Positions 30,474-34,003 of a DNA stretch of 64,000 bases are shown here, piece by piece. The notes under the pieces were generated by a model, which was given only the letters and a program-made list of their open reading frames with translations, was not told the DNA's origin and did no database searches. The translations under genes were made by a program, and so were the position numbers. Every line of letters starts with the position of its first letter. Within the stretch, counting starts at the first letter, position 1. This DNA is from Devosia submarina (lineage in GTDB: Bacteria; Pseudomonadota; Alphaproteobacteria; Rhizobiales; Devosiaceae), in NCBI RefSeq assembly GCF_003056345.1, contig NZ_PYWB01000007.1, forward strand, positions 62,001 to 126,000. Reading direction: 5' to 3'.

Positions 30474-30548
30474 GCGCCCTTCGTCTATCGGTTAGGACGG
30501 CACCCTTTCACGGTGCAGAGAGGGGTTCGATTCCCCTAGGGCGTACCA
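30474..30548 (+). tRNA. tRNA-Glu (anticodon TTC)
   Basis: A 75-base cloverleaf: acceptor GCGCCCT/AGGGCGT, D-arm CGTCTATCGGTTAGGACG, anticodon stem GCACC/GGTGC with loop CTTTCAC giving anticodon TTC, T-arm GGTTCGATTCC, and encoded CCA. Confidence 0.96.
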
Positions 30549-30596
30549 TTCCTTTCTTCTCGGGAATGAAGTAAATAGGCGTTATTCCTCTGGTCC

Positions 30597-30671
30597 GCGC
30601 CCATCGTCTATCGGTTAGGACGGCACCCTCTCACGGTGCAGAGCGGGGTTCGATTCCCCGTGGGCGTACCA
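30597..30671 (+). tRNA. tRNA-Glu (anticodon CTC)
   Basis: A 75-base cloverleaf almost identical to the preceding tRNA-Glu: acceptor GCGCCCA/TGGGCGT, anticodon loop CTCTCAC giving CTC, and encoded CCA. It differs by the wobble base and a few compensating stem changes, so it arose by tandem duplication and now reads GAG specifically. The 48-base spacer suggests a shared transcript. Confidence 0.96.
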
Positions 30672-30777
30672 AGGACTGCTTCTATACATTGCTTTGGGGC
30701 TTGCTTCTGTTGATGGTTGCCGTTTTTGCTGCGCAAGACGGCTGACATGCGCAAAGCAGTCGATGTATGCGGTAGCA

Positions 30778-31362
30778 ATGAGCGATCAGCAAAGCGGCCA
30801 GCCGCTATATCCATCAGAGGCGATTAATCCGAACGAGCTGCTCGTGCGGATTGCCGAGAATCAAGACCGAATGGCGCTTGCCGAGTTGTTCAATCTGTTC
30901 GGACCTCGCGTGAAATCGATGATGCTGAAACTGGGGACCAGTGACGCCCTGGCTGAAGATCTGGTCCAGGAAACGTTTTTGTCCGTATGGCGAAAGGCGG
31001 CGCTCTTCTCCAGCCAGCGCGGTGCCGCCAGTACGTGGATATTCACAATCGCCCGCAATTTGCGAATCGACCAGCTCCGCCGACAGTCCAACAAGCCGTA
31101 CGATGACCTGGCGGAAATGGATCTTGCCAGCGACATGCCGATCGGGAGCTTTCTGGTTGAGCAAAGCCAAGTAATCGACCGTGTTGCTGCTGCCTTGAAG
31201 AACCTGTCGCCGGAACAGCAGGAGGTGGTCCGGCTGAGCTTTATACATGATCTGCCGCATGCAGAGATTGCCGTGCGAGTTGGTATCCCTCTTGGGACGG
31301 TCAAATCCCGACTGCGCCTAGCATATGAACGGCTCCGGCCCATGCTGGAGGATCTGCAATGA
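30778..31362 (+). CDS. rpoE: ECF-family RNA polymerase sigma factor (RpoE/ChrR type)
   Basis: This sigma factor has about 194 residues and only regions 2 and 4. Region 2 shows DLVQETFLSVWRKAALF and the -10-binding FTIARNLRIDQLRR; region 4 has QQEVVRLSFIHDLPHAEIAVR and GIPLGTVKSRLRLAYERLRP. It best fits the ECF11 group, paired with a ChrR-like anti-sigma factor whose start overlaps its stop. In Rhodobacter sphaeroides this pair governs the singlet-oxygen response. The start could also be the ATG at 30763; neither has a strong ribosome-binding site. I did not find a convincing TGATCC-type autoregulatory promoter directly upstream. Confidence 0.88.
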   Translation: MSDQQSGQPLYPSEAINPNELLVRIAENQDRMALAELFNLFGPRVKSMMLKLGTSDALAEDLVQETFLSVWRKAALFSSQRGAASTWIFTIARNLRIDQLRRQSNKPYDDLAEMDLASDMPIGSFLVEQSQVIDRVAAALKNLSPEQQEVVRLSFIHDLPHAEIAVRVGIPLGTVKSRLRLAYERLRPMLEDLQ

Positions 31363-32003
31363 CCGTAAAGCACCATCCCGACATCTCAACGCTGATGGCG
31401 TTCAGCGCTGGAACGCTGGACGAGCCGTATACCACTGTTATTGCCACGCACCTTGCCATGTCTGAGCAAGGGCGGGAGATCATGCACAGACTCAACGCGA
31501 TTGGTGGCGCCTTGCTTGAGAGCGAGCCGGAAGCTGAAATCAAAGAGGGTGCTGTTGATCGGCTGCTTGGCTCTTTAACCGGAGAGGGGGTCCAGCCCCT
31601 GCCCCATCGCGAGCCTGCCTCCGTTCCTGCTCCGTTGCGTCCCTATCTGCCATTGGGCCTTGAAGGGGTGCGGTGGAAGTGGACTGGCCCGGGTGTCGCT
31701 GCGGCGGACCTGGCCGTTGGCAAGGATGGGAAATCCAGACTGATGCTGATGCGGGTTGCCGGCGGGCGCAGTGTGCCGGAGCATAGTCATGGCGGACAGG
31801 AACTCACGCTGATCCTGCGGGGCGCCTACAGGGATCGCTTTGGTGTGTTCGAGGTCGGCGATATTTCGGACCATGATGAGGATGTGGAGCATCAGCCTAT
31901 TGCGGAACCTGGCGAGGACTGCATTTGTCTTGTTGCCGTGAACGCGCCGCTAAGCTTCCGTAGCCGTTTGGTGCGGGCGCTACAGCCGCTGTTCGGACTG
32001 TGA
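31359..32003 (+). CDS. chrR: ChrR-like cupin anti-sigma factor lacking zinc-binding cysteines
   Basis: This 214-residue protein has the ChrR layout: an N-terminal anti-sigma domain (1-90) and a C-terminal cupin domain. ChrR binds zinc through His6, His31, Cys35 and Cys38. Here His6 and His31 are present (ATHLAMSEQGR), but positions 35 and 38 are Ser and Gly. The codons TCT and GGG confirm this. The cupin metal residues are kept: His142, His144, Glu148 and His178. The start overlaps the sigma gene stop (ATGA), so the two are translationally coupled. It may bind the sigma factor without zinc, or signal differently from classical ChrR. Confidence 0.85.
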   Translation: MTVKHHPDISTLMAFSAGTLDEPYTTVIATHLAMSEQGREIMHRLNAIGGALLESEPEAEIKEGAVDRLLGSLTGEGVQPLPHREPASVPAPLRPYLPLGLEGVRWKWTGPGVAAADLAVGKDGKSRLMLMRVAGGRSVPEHSHGGQELTLILRGAYRDRFGVFEVGDISDHDEDVEHQPIAEPGEDCICLVAVNAPLSFRSRLVRALQPLFGL

Positions 32004-32764
32004 CGCTCCAGCCTGGCGTGGCCTGGATCATTGGCGGTGGCTCGGGGATAGGGGCTGCTGTTGCGCGGCTGCTTGCTGAACAGGGGTGGATTGTCGCCAT
32101 ATCGGGGCGTCGGAGCGACAAGCTGGCGGAGGTAGCGGCTCGCAACGACGGTATCCGGACCTACCGGCTAGACGTGACGGATAAAGAAGCGGTCCAAGCG
32201 ACCATACAGCGAATTGTGCGTGAGTTGGGGCGCATTGACCTCTTCATCTTTGGCGCTGTTGCCTCGCAGCCTATGGAAGCAGGCGACTACGATTTTACGC
32301 CGTTCCAAGCTATCGTGGATACGAATTTTCTGAGTCTGGTGCGTGCCGCCAATCCGGTGATCGCGCAGATGGAGCGACAGGGTGGCGGGCACTTCGCGGC
32401 GATCGCTTCCGTCGCAGGCTATTTCGGGTTGCCGCGTGCGGCTGCGTATTCGTCCACCAAGGCGGCCATGATCAGCCTGCTTGAAACGATGCGCACCGAA
32501 CTAGCGGCGCGGAACATCAAGGTTCGGATGATCGCGCCCGGATTTGTGAAGTCGGAGCTGACCGACAGAAACGAATTCCAGATGCCGTTCCTGATGGAAA
32601 CGGACGAGGCCGCGCGACGGATCGTTGATCGCTTGACCCGGACCGATGCCTTCGAGATCGCTTTTCCCCGGCGGATGGTCTGGACCATGAAAGCTCTGCG
32701 CCTGCTGCCTTATCCTCTCTTTTTCCGGATAACGGACATGATGCTGCGCAGAAGCGGGAAGTGA
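32000..32764 (+). CDS. Short-chain dehydrogenase/reductase
   Basis: This 254-residue SDR has the cofactor motif GGGSGIG at 12-18 and the catalytic YSSTK, with Ser in AIASVAGYFG. A GTG start overlaps the upstream stop (GTGA), so it belongs to the sigma-ChrR transcript. The C-terminus is basic and hydrophobic (RMVWTMKALRLLPYPLFFRITDMML) and may contact the membrane. In Rhodobacter sphaeroides an SDR and a cyclopropane-fatty-acid-synthase-like gene are in the RpoE regulon, which fits this context. Substrate unknown. Confidence 0.87.
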   Translation: MTLQPGVAWIIGGGSGIGAAVARLLAEQGWIVAISGRRSDKLAEVAARNDGIRTYRLDVTDKEAVQATIQRIVRELGRIDLFIFGAVASQPMEAGDYDFTPFQAIVDTNFLSLVRAANPVIAQMERQGGGHFAAIASVAGYFGLPRAAAYSSTKAAMISLLETMRTELAARNIKVRMIAPGFVKSELTDRNEFQMPFLMETDEAARRIVDRLTRTDAFEIAFPRRMVWTMKALRLLPYPLFFRITDMMLRRSGK

Positions 32765-32767
32765 GTT

Positions 32768-34003
32768 TTATTCGGGTCGGCGATATTGATAAATACCGAC
32801 ATCGATGCAGCCTTCGGCAAAGCCGGCTTCGCAGTAGCTGAGATAGTAGACCCATTTACGCCTGAAGTTTTCATCGTATCCAAGCGGAGCGATCACGGGC
32901 CAGCGCTCCAGGAAGCGTTCGCGCCACAGGCGGAGCGTTTTGGCATAGGATAGGCCGAAGTTTTCGACGTTCTCGAGTACGAGGCCGTACTTTTCGCCAA
33001 ACTCGCGCATCACGGTTTTGGTCAGGAGCATTCCGCCGGGGAAGATATAGCGCTGGATGAAATCCGGTCCGCTCCTATAACCATCAAAATCGCGTTCAGC
33101 GATAGTAATAGCCTGGATGGCAGCGGTACCGCCGGGCTTGAGCCGATCATGAATGGTCTGGAAATAGCTCGGCCAGTTCTCTTCACCCACTGCCTCGATC
33201 ATCTCGATGGATGCGATGTGGTCAAACTGCCCCTCGGTGTGACGGTAGTCCTCGAACACCAGCTTGGCGAAATTGTCTAGTCCTTGGCGGGACATGCGTT
33301 CTCGGGCAAAGCGGAGTTGCTCGGCCGAAAGAGTTATGCCGCGCAGATTGGCCTTGTACTCGCGAGCCACTGTCTCGGCGAAGCCGCCCCAGCCGCAGCC
33401 GATTTCAAGAACGGTTGAACCTTCGGTGATTCCGGCCATGTCGGCGACACGACGGTACTTGGTGCGTTGTGCATCTTCTAGGCTCTGGTCGCCAGACTGG
33501 AACAGGGCCGAGGAATAGGTCATGGAAGGGTCGAGCCACTGACCATAGAAGTCATTGCCGAGGTCATAATGCTCGGCGATGTTCTTTCTGGAGCCTTCCA
33601 GCGTGTTGCGGCGGGACAAATGATACTGCAGATCGGCAGCTGCCTTGCGGAAGAACCCGGGATTGGCCTTGTCGAGTGTGTCGCGGTTCTGCAGGAAGAA
33701 GCGGATCAGCCCCGTAAGGTCGTCGACCTCGATGTCGCCGTTCATATAAGCCGCGGCAAATCCGACAGTGCCCCGCTGCATGGCTTCGCTCAGGACGCGG
33801 AAATTCTTGAGACGCAGAGTTGCGTGTTGGCCAGTGGACGGGTTGCCGATCGTGCGCGTGCGGCCATTAGGCAGGATCACCGTAACGCTGCCGTGCTGGG
33901 GCTGGCCCAGCAATTTCATCCCGGCAAATTCGAGGGTCCAGGAGGCAAAACGAGTCCATAGCGTAACGCCGGTAATGGTCTCTTCTACTACGGTTTTATT
34001 CAT
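32768..34003 (-). CDS. cfa: Cyclopropane-fatty-acyl-phospholipid synthase family methyltransferase
   Basis: This 411-residue SAM-dependent enzyme of the CFA synthase family modifies unsaturated acyl chains in membrane phospholipids. The SAM-binding motif is VLEIGCGWGGFAETVA, preceded by EHYDLGNDFYGQWLD and followed by the family block SIEMIEAVGEENWP. The ATG at 34003 gives the usual N-terminus; the frame is open 39 codons further upstream, but that part looks non-coding. It is convergent with the SDR gene, 3 bases apart. In other alphaproteobacteria CFA-like enzymes are induced by singlet oxygen via RpoE. Confidence 0.87.
   Translation of the reverse strand: MNKTVVEETITGVTLWTRFASWTLEFAGMKLLGQPQHGSVTVILPNGRTRTIGNPSTGQHATLRLKNFRVLSEAMQRGTVGFAAAYMNGDIEVDDLTGLIRFFLQNRDTLDKANPGFFRKAAADLQYHLSRRNTLEGSRKNIAEHYDLGNDFYGQWLDPSMTYSSALFQSGDQSLEDAQRTKYRRVADMAGITEGSTVLEIGCGWGGFAETVAREYKANLRGITLSAEQLRFARERMSRQGLDNFAKLVFEDYRHTEGQFDHIASIEMIEAVGEENWPSYFQTIHDRLKPGGTAAIQAITIAERDFDGYRSGPDFIQRYIFPGGMLLTKTVMREFGEKYGLVLENVENFGLSYAKTLRLWRERFLERWPVIAPLGYDENFRRKWVYYLSYCEAGFAEGCIDVGIYQYRRPE

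Follow-up and report, generated by a model that had tools for sequence, protein, structure and literature searches.

The standard example of an anti-sigma factor that responds to singlet oxygen is ChrR. In the R. sphaeroides protein, one zinc, bound by His6, His31, Cys35, and Cys38, clamps the N-terminus and the turn between helices II and III of the anti-sigma domain (ASD). Sigma factor release has been assigned to the cupin domain, in which E147 and H177 are needed and C187 and C189 are not; the cupin Glu/His ligands are needed for activation by both singlet oxygen and tert-butyl hydroperoxide (PMC6852236). The same 2019 review states that the precise role of the ASD zinc in the singlet-oxygen response is unknown; from peptide work it has been argued that singlet oxygen reacts with the very cysteines that bind the zinc (PMC6432622). 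ASDs that work without zinc have been described elsewhere: RseA folds without it (PMC6852236), and RsiW binds SigW without it (PMC5358783). In a 2020 survey, ~72% of the soluble class I ASDs had the zinc motif; some groups were mixed, and for these the zinc was suggested to have a structural and not a sensory role (PMC7406223). We found no report, in the open-licence literature, of ChrR-cupin proteins that have lost the ASD cysteines, and PMC11832516, examined for zinc and motif terms, gave nothing on the zinc site.

Family membership, fold, and metal ligands of the window ChrR

The window, a 64,000-nucleotide stretch of Devosia submarina DNA, contains an open frame that begins with an ATG within an ATGA overlap (−4) with the cognate ECF sigma factor gene immediately 5′ of it (Table 1). 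The product scores 175.8 bits over residues 5-213 against the ChrR family profile TIGR02451, above its curated cut-off of 124.5, and aligns full-length with R. sphaeroides ChrR (PDB 2z2s_B and 2q1z_B), the alignment of residues 1-85 to 2z2s_B being free of gaps. Identity with the cadmium/peroxide/UV responsive ChrR equivalog (NF051881) was rejected, with a score of 177.9 bits against a cut-off of 300. All four cupin metal ligands (His142, His144, Glu148, and His178) are kept. In the ASD, the ZAS motif H-X3-C-X2-C is absent, the corresponding residues being H31-X3-S35-X2-G38; the sole cysteines are 188 and 190, and no substitute cysteine lies near positions 35 and 38.

AlphaFold models were compared for the window ChrR (pLDDT 92.1) and for L014 (pLDDT 94.3), a relative with a complete zinc site; below, the residues at positions 6, 31, 35, and 38 are abbreviated as HHSG and HHCC, respectively. 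In both models, helices span residues 22-34 and 36-54 and leave residue 35 alone between them, with pLDDT 95-98 over residues 1-50, bound and apo zinc sites being indistinguishable to AlphaFold. A Foldseek search with the window model returned ChrR chains of 2q1z and 2z2s as its top six matches, the best with an E value of 1.8e-18, a TM score by target of 0.84, and an rmsd of 3.7, and the model has the two-domain fold (ASD plus cupin) of 2Q1Z and 2Z2S. Profile, alignment, and model thus bear out the preliminary description of this protein, which had reported a ChrR-type fold with its cupin ligands, His6 and His31 in place, and Ser and Gly at the positions of Cys35 and Cys38; since no other cysteines take their place, its claim of a changed zinc site stands.

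Table 1. Features of the sigma-chrR locus, in window coordinates
Feature	Position	Strand	Remarks
Degenerate relic of the sigma factor gene's own promoter	30711..30735	+	TGATGG ... CGCA, against TGATC[CT]-N16/17-CGT in relatives
ECF sigma factor gene (ECF11/RpoE type by its ChrR partner)	30763..31362	+	ATGA overlap with chrR; start from conservation
chrR-family anti-sigma factor gene, 214 aa	31359..32003	+	ASD H6, H31, S35, G38; cupin H142, H144, E148, H178
Codon 35, TCT (Ser), where ChrR has zinc ligand Cys35	31461..31463	+	Sequence; conservation
Codon 38, GGG (Gly), where ChrR has zinc ligand Cys38	31470..31472	+	Sequence; conservation
Short-chain dehydrogenase/reductase (SDR) gene	32000..32764	+	GTGA overlap with chrR; same order in G065
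Cyclopropane-fatty-acid-synthase-type (CFA) methyltransferase gene, 411 aa (CMAS family)	32768..34003	-	
Relic, 3′ end of DUF1365/UfaO gene, 43 aa	34029..34154	-	56% identity to the intact G065 gene, E 1.6e-8

Ser35 and Gly38 in the genus, the family, and the class

The preliminary description had asked whether Ser/Gly is general among homologues; within the genus, the pair characterises one ChrR lineage throughout. A chrR match was found in 51 of 75 genomes of the window's genus, 49 of them over the cut-off. Apart from the window, 49 loci of the genus gave a protein, 22 of them HHSG and 27 HHCC. Ser35/Gly38 is present in all 23 distinct HHSG sequences of the genus, window included; the 27 HHCC loci form a separate ChrR lineage with ~36-42% identity to the window protein. 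The 27 loci over the cut-off that come from the family's other genera are all HHCC, and eight HHCC loci (from the family or contig sets) share 57-67% identity with the window protein and belong to its lineage. Among 60 relatives from a scan of genome contigs, 11 are HHSG (nine titled Devosia and two MAGs); D. limi (L007) and D. soli (L004) are cultured Devosia of this type. In the same lineage, HHCC is kept by L012 (a MAG titled Devosia, RYN_483), L011 (Arsenicitalea), and L014. The presence of HHCC in members of the lineage outside the genus indicates that the cysteines were lost inside the window's ChrR lineage. An AU test leaves a single HHSG origin standing (p 0.38) without establishing it; two origins are possible, since the HHSG sequence L095 falls outside in the careful tree (support 93/73) and its Ser35 codon, AGC, is a single change away from TGC (Cys), the other 22 having TCN. 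Two fragments (L058 and L059) and a protein of 185 aa (L109) were left out of the trees and of the 254-row counts, and the broken gene L110 (genome G072) gave no protein.

Within the 23 HHSG sequences, Ser35 is encoded by TCC (9), TCG (8), TCA (4), TCT (1), and AGC (1), and Gly38 by GGG (11), GGC (8), GGA (3), and GGT (1), so that the third base varies and the residues are fixed, as expected under selection. Invariant columns number 23/52 in the ASD, 52/119 in the cupin, and 4/43 in the linker; the ASD is thus conserved as much as the cupin in this lineage. Fixed differences between the 23 HHSG and eight HHCC ChrR proteins of the lineage occur at columns 35, 38, and 108 only, and none was found between the sigma factors of the two forms, which gives no support to compensating sigma changes that coevolved with HHSG. 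An artefact of alignment or sequencing, under which the cysteines would be missing on paper only, has next to no probability: the gap-free alignment of residues 1-85 to 2z2s_B and the 22 independent sequences refute it, and a sequencing error at codons 35 and 38, the doubt the preliminary description had attached to its reading, is excluded by Ser/Gly in those 22 further distinct sequences.

For the class Alphaproteobacteria, we drew 385 genomes evenly, of which 135 gave over-cut-off matches, and recovered 136 proteins. Five over-cut-off places (two in G446 and one each in G478, G258, and G177) were left out, as was G247, whose split match exceeds the cut-off only together with its neighbours in frame. 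Among the 136 proteins, 106 are HHCC, 30 lack at least one ASD cysteine, and 25 lack both. The cupin residues HHEH are present in 136/136 proteins of this sample and in 254/254 rows overall, a constancy partly selected for because the search profile includes the cupin; both sequence searches used cupin-containing profiles or patterns and so under-sample cupin-less proteins, and the profile cut-off also under-samples Cys-less ChrR. In the Roseicyclus/Roseibacterium clade, Cys38 and mostly Cys35 were lost independently (HHSA, NHSS, QHCA, and similar). Two members of this Roseicyclus-type clade, L015 (QHCA) and L053 (SHCA), have lost Cys38 and His6 and kept Cys35, which looks like an intermediate step in the loss of the zinc site. 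A family tree (FastTree) gives ~18 changes of the cysteine pair; this tree is rough and implies four unlikely regains, and we take the number as a sign of many losses only. By these counts, the ASD cysteines have gone repeatedly within the class and the window ChrR is not unique; with 30 such proteins among 136, the idea of an isolated oddity finds no support.

The sigma factor gene, its promoter, and the UfaD/UfaO genes

Conservation places the probable start of the sigma factor gene at an in-frame ATG at position 30763 (MYAVAMSD...); the alternative is the ATG at 30778, five codons further in. The ATGA coupling to chrR, which the preliminary description had taken to show that the pair is still linked, is present here and kept in 22/22 other HHSG loci. 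The autoregulated TGATC sigma promoter of the R. sphaeroides type is lacking in the window, where TGATGG stands at 30711. The relatives have TGATC[CT]-N16/17-CGT ~40-48 bases before the inner sigma start, in 22/22 other HHSG loci (19 TGATCC and 3 TGATCT) and in 8/8 HHCC loci of the lineage; the degenerate form thus occurs in the window only, the promoter being intact in 30/30 other compared lineage loci. The end of a tRNA-Glu gene (30671) lies ~40 bases upstream of the degenerate promoter. No sigma-70-type promoter was found in a scan of positions 30500-32100. Sites of the form TGATCC-N15-17-CGTA number 12 in the window's genome vs. 6 in the reversed control, a weaker excess than the 18 vs. 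0 or 17 vs. 3 in G005 and G065; no exact match lies within the window. One of the 12 sites recurs in G051 and sits within an open frame, and none of the 12 is established as a promoter.

Downstream, the SDR gene is probably the third gene of a single sigma-chrR-SDR operon. The divergence of the two regulatory proteins was measured relative to the neighbouring CFA protein: this relative distance is 1.82 for the window ChrR (1.51-2.02 in 19 relatives) and 1.77 for the window sigma factor (1.77-2.40 in 19 relatives), and changes at otherwise invariant sites number three in ChrR and one in the sigma factor. Neither protein is accelerated relative to CFA, and relaxed selection on the window ChrR is not seen.

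In R. sphaeroides, full resistance to singlet oxygen and RpoE activation depend on both RSP_1091 and RSP_1090, named UfaD and UfaO (PMC7380195); ChrR proteolysis requires RSP_1090, and the response of an RSP_1090 mutant to organic peroxide is unimpaired (PMC3818230). This part of the R. sphaeroides-type sigma E regulon is missing from the window's genome, a loss that, like that of the usual sigma promoter, lay beyond the view of the preliminary description. In G065, chrR is followed by the SDR, CFA synthase, DUF1365 (UfaO), and FAD-dependent UfaD genes and recJ; the window has lost UfaD and most of UfaO from the interval between CFA and recJ, and the relic in Table 1 is what is left. No UfaD homologue was found in the window's own genome at E <= 1e-30, and its only DUF1365/UfaO match is this relic, at 20.8 bits. 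The other HHSG genomes of the genus have UfaD in 22/22 cases and an uninterrupted UfaO in 21/22 (G030 has stops). A TGATCC-type site lies ~35 bases 5′ of ufaD in G005, G029, and G065 but is absent in G051; for three of these four genomes, this connects ufaD with the same sigma factor.

These losses bear on the possibility of gene decay, in which the anti-sigma function has already gone or is on its way out, with the absence of the cysteines as a first symptom. The degenerate sigma promoter and the absence of UfaD/UfaO would fit such a course, as would the stops in both chrR and DUF1365 of G072, a small genome of the genus, and the 24/75 genus genomes without any chrR match at all. However, loss of the cysteines dates from the common lineage, whose other loci keep the TGATC promoter (22/22) and, with one exception, an intact UfaO (21/22), and the window chrR has an open frame, a normal relative rate, and few changes at invariant sites; we therefore consider decay improbable. 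From its sequence, the window chrR looks like a maintained, working protein, and, set against its relatives, the loss of the zinc cysteines is not a sequencing error and probably not decay. The circuit around it may be partly out of use in this genome, where the usual sigma promoter and UfaD/UfaO are lacking.

Elsewhere in the genus, the locus appears in several other states. In G072 (C97; 2.0 Mb, 98% complete), which carries L110, there is an apparent loss of the whole circuit. G007, G021, G035, G039, G067, and G068 have no chrR match and only a DUF1365 3′ remnant, like the window's relic. G031, G048, and G052, which carry the other, HHCC chrR lineage, have an intact DUF1365 together with a further 3′ remnant, a pattern suggestive of the replacement of one ChrR locus by another. 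G016, G023, G037, and G044 have UfaD and DUF1365 homologues and no chrR match at E <= 0.001.

Proposed holding and release of the sigma factor without the zinc cysteines

Ser, Asp, Asn, and Thr are good helix N-caps. Residue 35, alone between helices II and III in both models, occupies the N-cap position of helix III, and sequences without Cys35 have one of these four residues there in 56/62 cases, or in 18/24 representatives below 50% identity. The latter is the highest such fraction among ASD columns 7-54 (mean 0.18; binomial 1e-9). Cys to Ser is one base change, so Ser at 35 is also favoured by mutation; Asp and Asn require two. Residue 38, where changed, is Ala, Gly, or Ser in 59/68 sequences. 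On the strength of the models and these frequencies, a helix cap at residue 35 probably takes over from the zinc clamp.

A pure cap model does not, from the alignment, account for the retention of His6 in HHSG sequences. His5, His6, Asp8, and His31 are invariant in 23/23 of them, whereas, among the other 39 sequences that lack both cysteines, only 8 have His6 and 26 have His31; this contrast may reflect a residual metal site or another use of His6. The ASD might accordingly keep a weaker, thiol-free metal clamp through His5, His6, His31, Asp8, and perhaps Glu36 or water, with no oxidisable cysteines. We regard such a site as unlikely, though less so than decay: Glu36 is variable among ChrR sequences (Ser and Pro occur), His5 is also present in 163/185 HHCC proteins and is no new ligand, and the histidines could be retained for packing or sigma contact. 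Even so, the invariance of His6 and His31 in the HHSG lineage is not required by a zinc-free clamp and, as an alignment pattern, counts against it.

The reading we favour, and consider likely, is that the window ChrR is a working anti-sigma factor whose ASD is zinc-independent and holds the sigma factor, with release through the cupin. Of the preliminary description, which had proposed a variant that holds sigma without zinc or is controlled through the cupin, this part is retained, on the basis of the intact cupin, the invariant Ser35/Gly38, the ATGA coupling, and the confident ASD fold. Ser35 would cap helix III, Gly38 would lie in its first turn, and contacts within the protein would keep the three-helix bundle of the ASD together, as they do in RseA of E. 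coli. The ASD would sequester the sigma factor encoded by the overlapping gene, as canonical ChrR does, and its release would depend on the intact cupin metal site. With the UfaD/UfaO pair absent, organic hydroperoxide would be the most likely signal left in this genome. Against a zinc-free ASD that still holds sigma stands the finding, in R. sphaeroides, that inhibition is lost when zinc ligands are changed singly to alanine (Newman 2001, as cited in PMC6852236).

Our results suggest that the ASD zinc is not the essential stress sensor, and the cupin metal site may be the sensor. A broader version, that across Alphaproteobacteria the ChrR ASD zinc is an exchangeable clamp, often lost and replaced by a helix cap, with the invariant cupin as the real sensor, is one we advance tentatively, as being somewhat more doubtful than even. 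On this broader version, the Devosia HHSG lineage would be a natural separation-of-function variant, and oxidation of the ASD zinc would be ruled out as a required singlet-oxygen or peroxide signal. Natural ChrR proteins that lack the ASD cysteines while the rest of the circuit persists (intact UfaO in 21/22 and UfaD in 22/22 other HHSG genomes) open the question of the zinc's role to direct study in an ordinary soil bacterium. The genome of the window is more extreme still, with sigma and ChrR kept and the UfaD/UfaO route lost.

The closest described system is R. sphaeroides ChrR (TIGR02451; 2Q1Z and 2Z2S; partner of the ECF11 sigma E), with which the window ChrR shares its length, two-domain fold, cupin ligands, Cys188/Cys190 pair, and ATGA-coupled ECF sigma gene, and its relatives the TGATC promoter; it differs in Ser35/Gly38 for Cys35/Cys38 and in a genome without the TGATC promoter before sigma and without UfaD/UfaO. 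The HHCC ChrR proteins of other Devosiaceae genera (L011, L012, L014, L159-L161, L164, and L166) are of the same lineage, at the identity given above, and agree in sigma coupling and promoter, but 8/8 have the full zinc site. E. coli RseA and M. tuberculosis RskA are both membrane-bound. They share with the window ChrR a helical ASD bundle without zinc (PMC7406223, PMC6852236) and differ from it in having no cupin and in not being orthologous to ChrR. B. subtilis RsiW resembles it in sigma binding that is independent of zinc, but keeps its CHCC site, has no cupin, and is activated by intramembrane proteolysis (PMC5358783). Zinc-free ASDs are already known, and given those precedents the absence of the ASD cysteines from ChrR-cupin proteins is to be expected, although it is useful for the question of what the ChrR zinc does.
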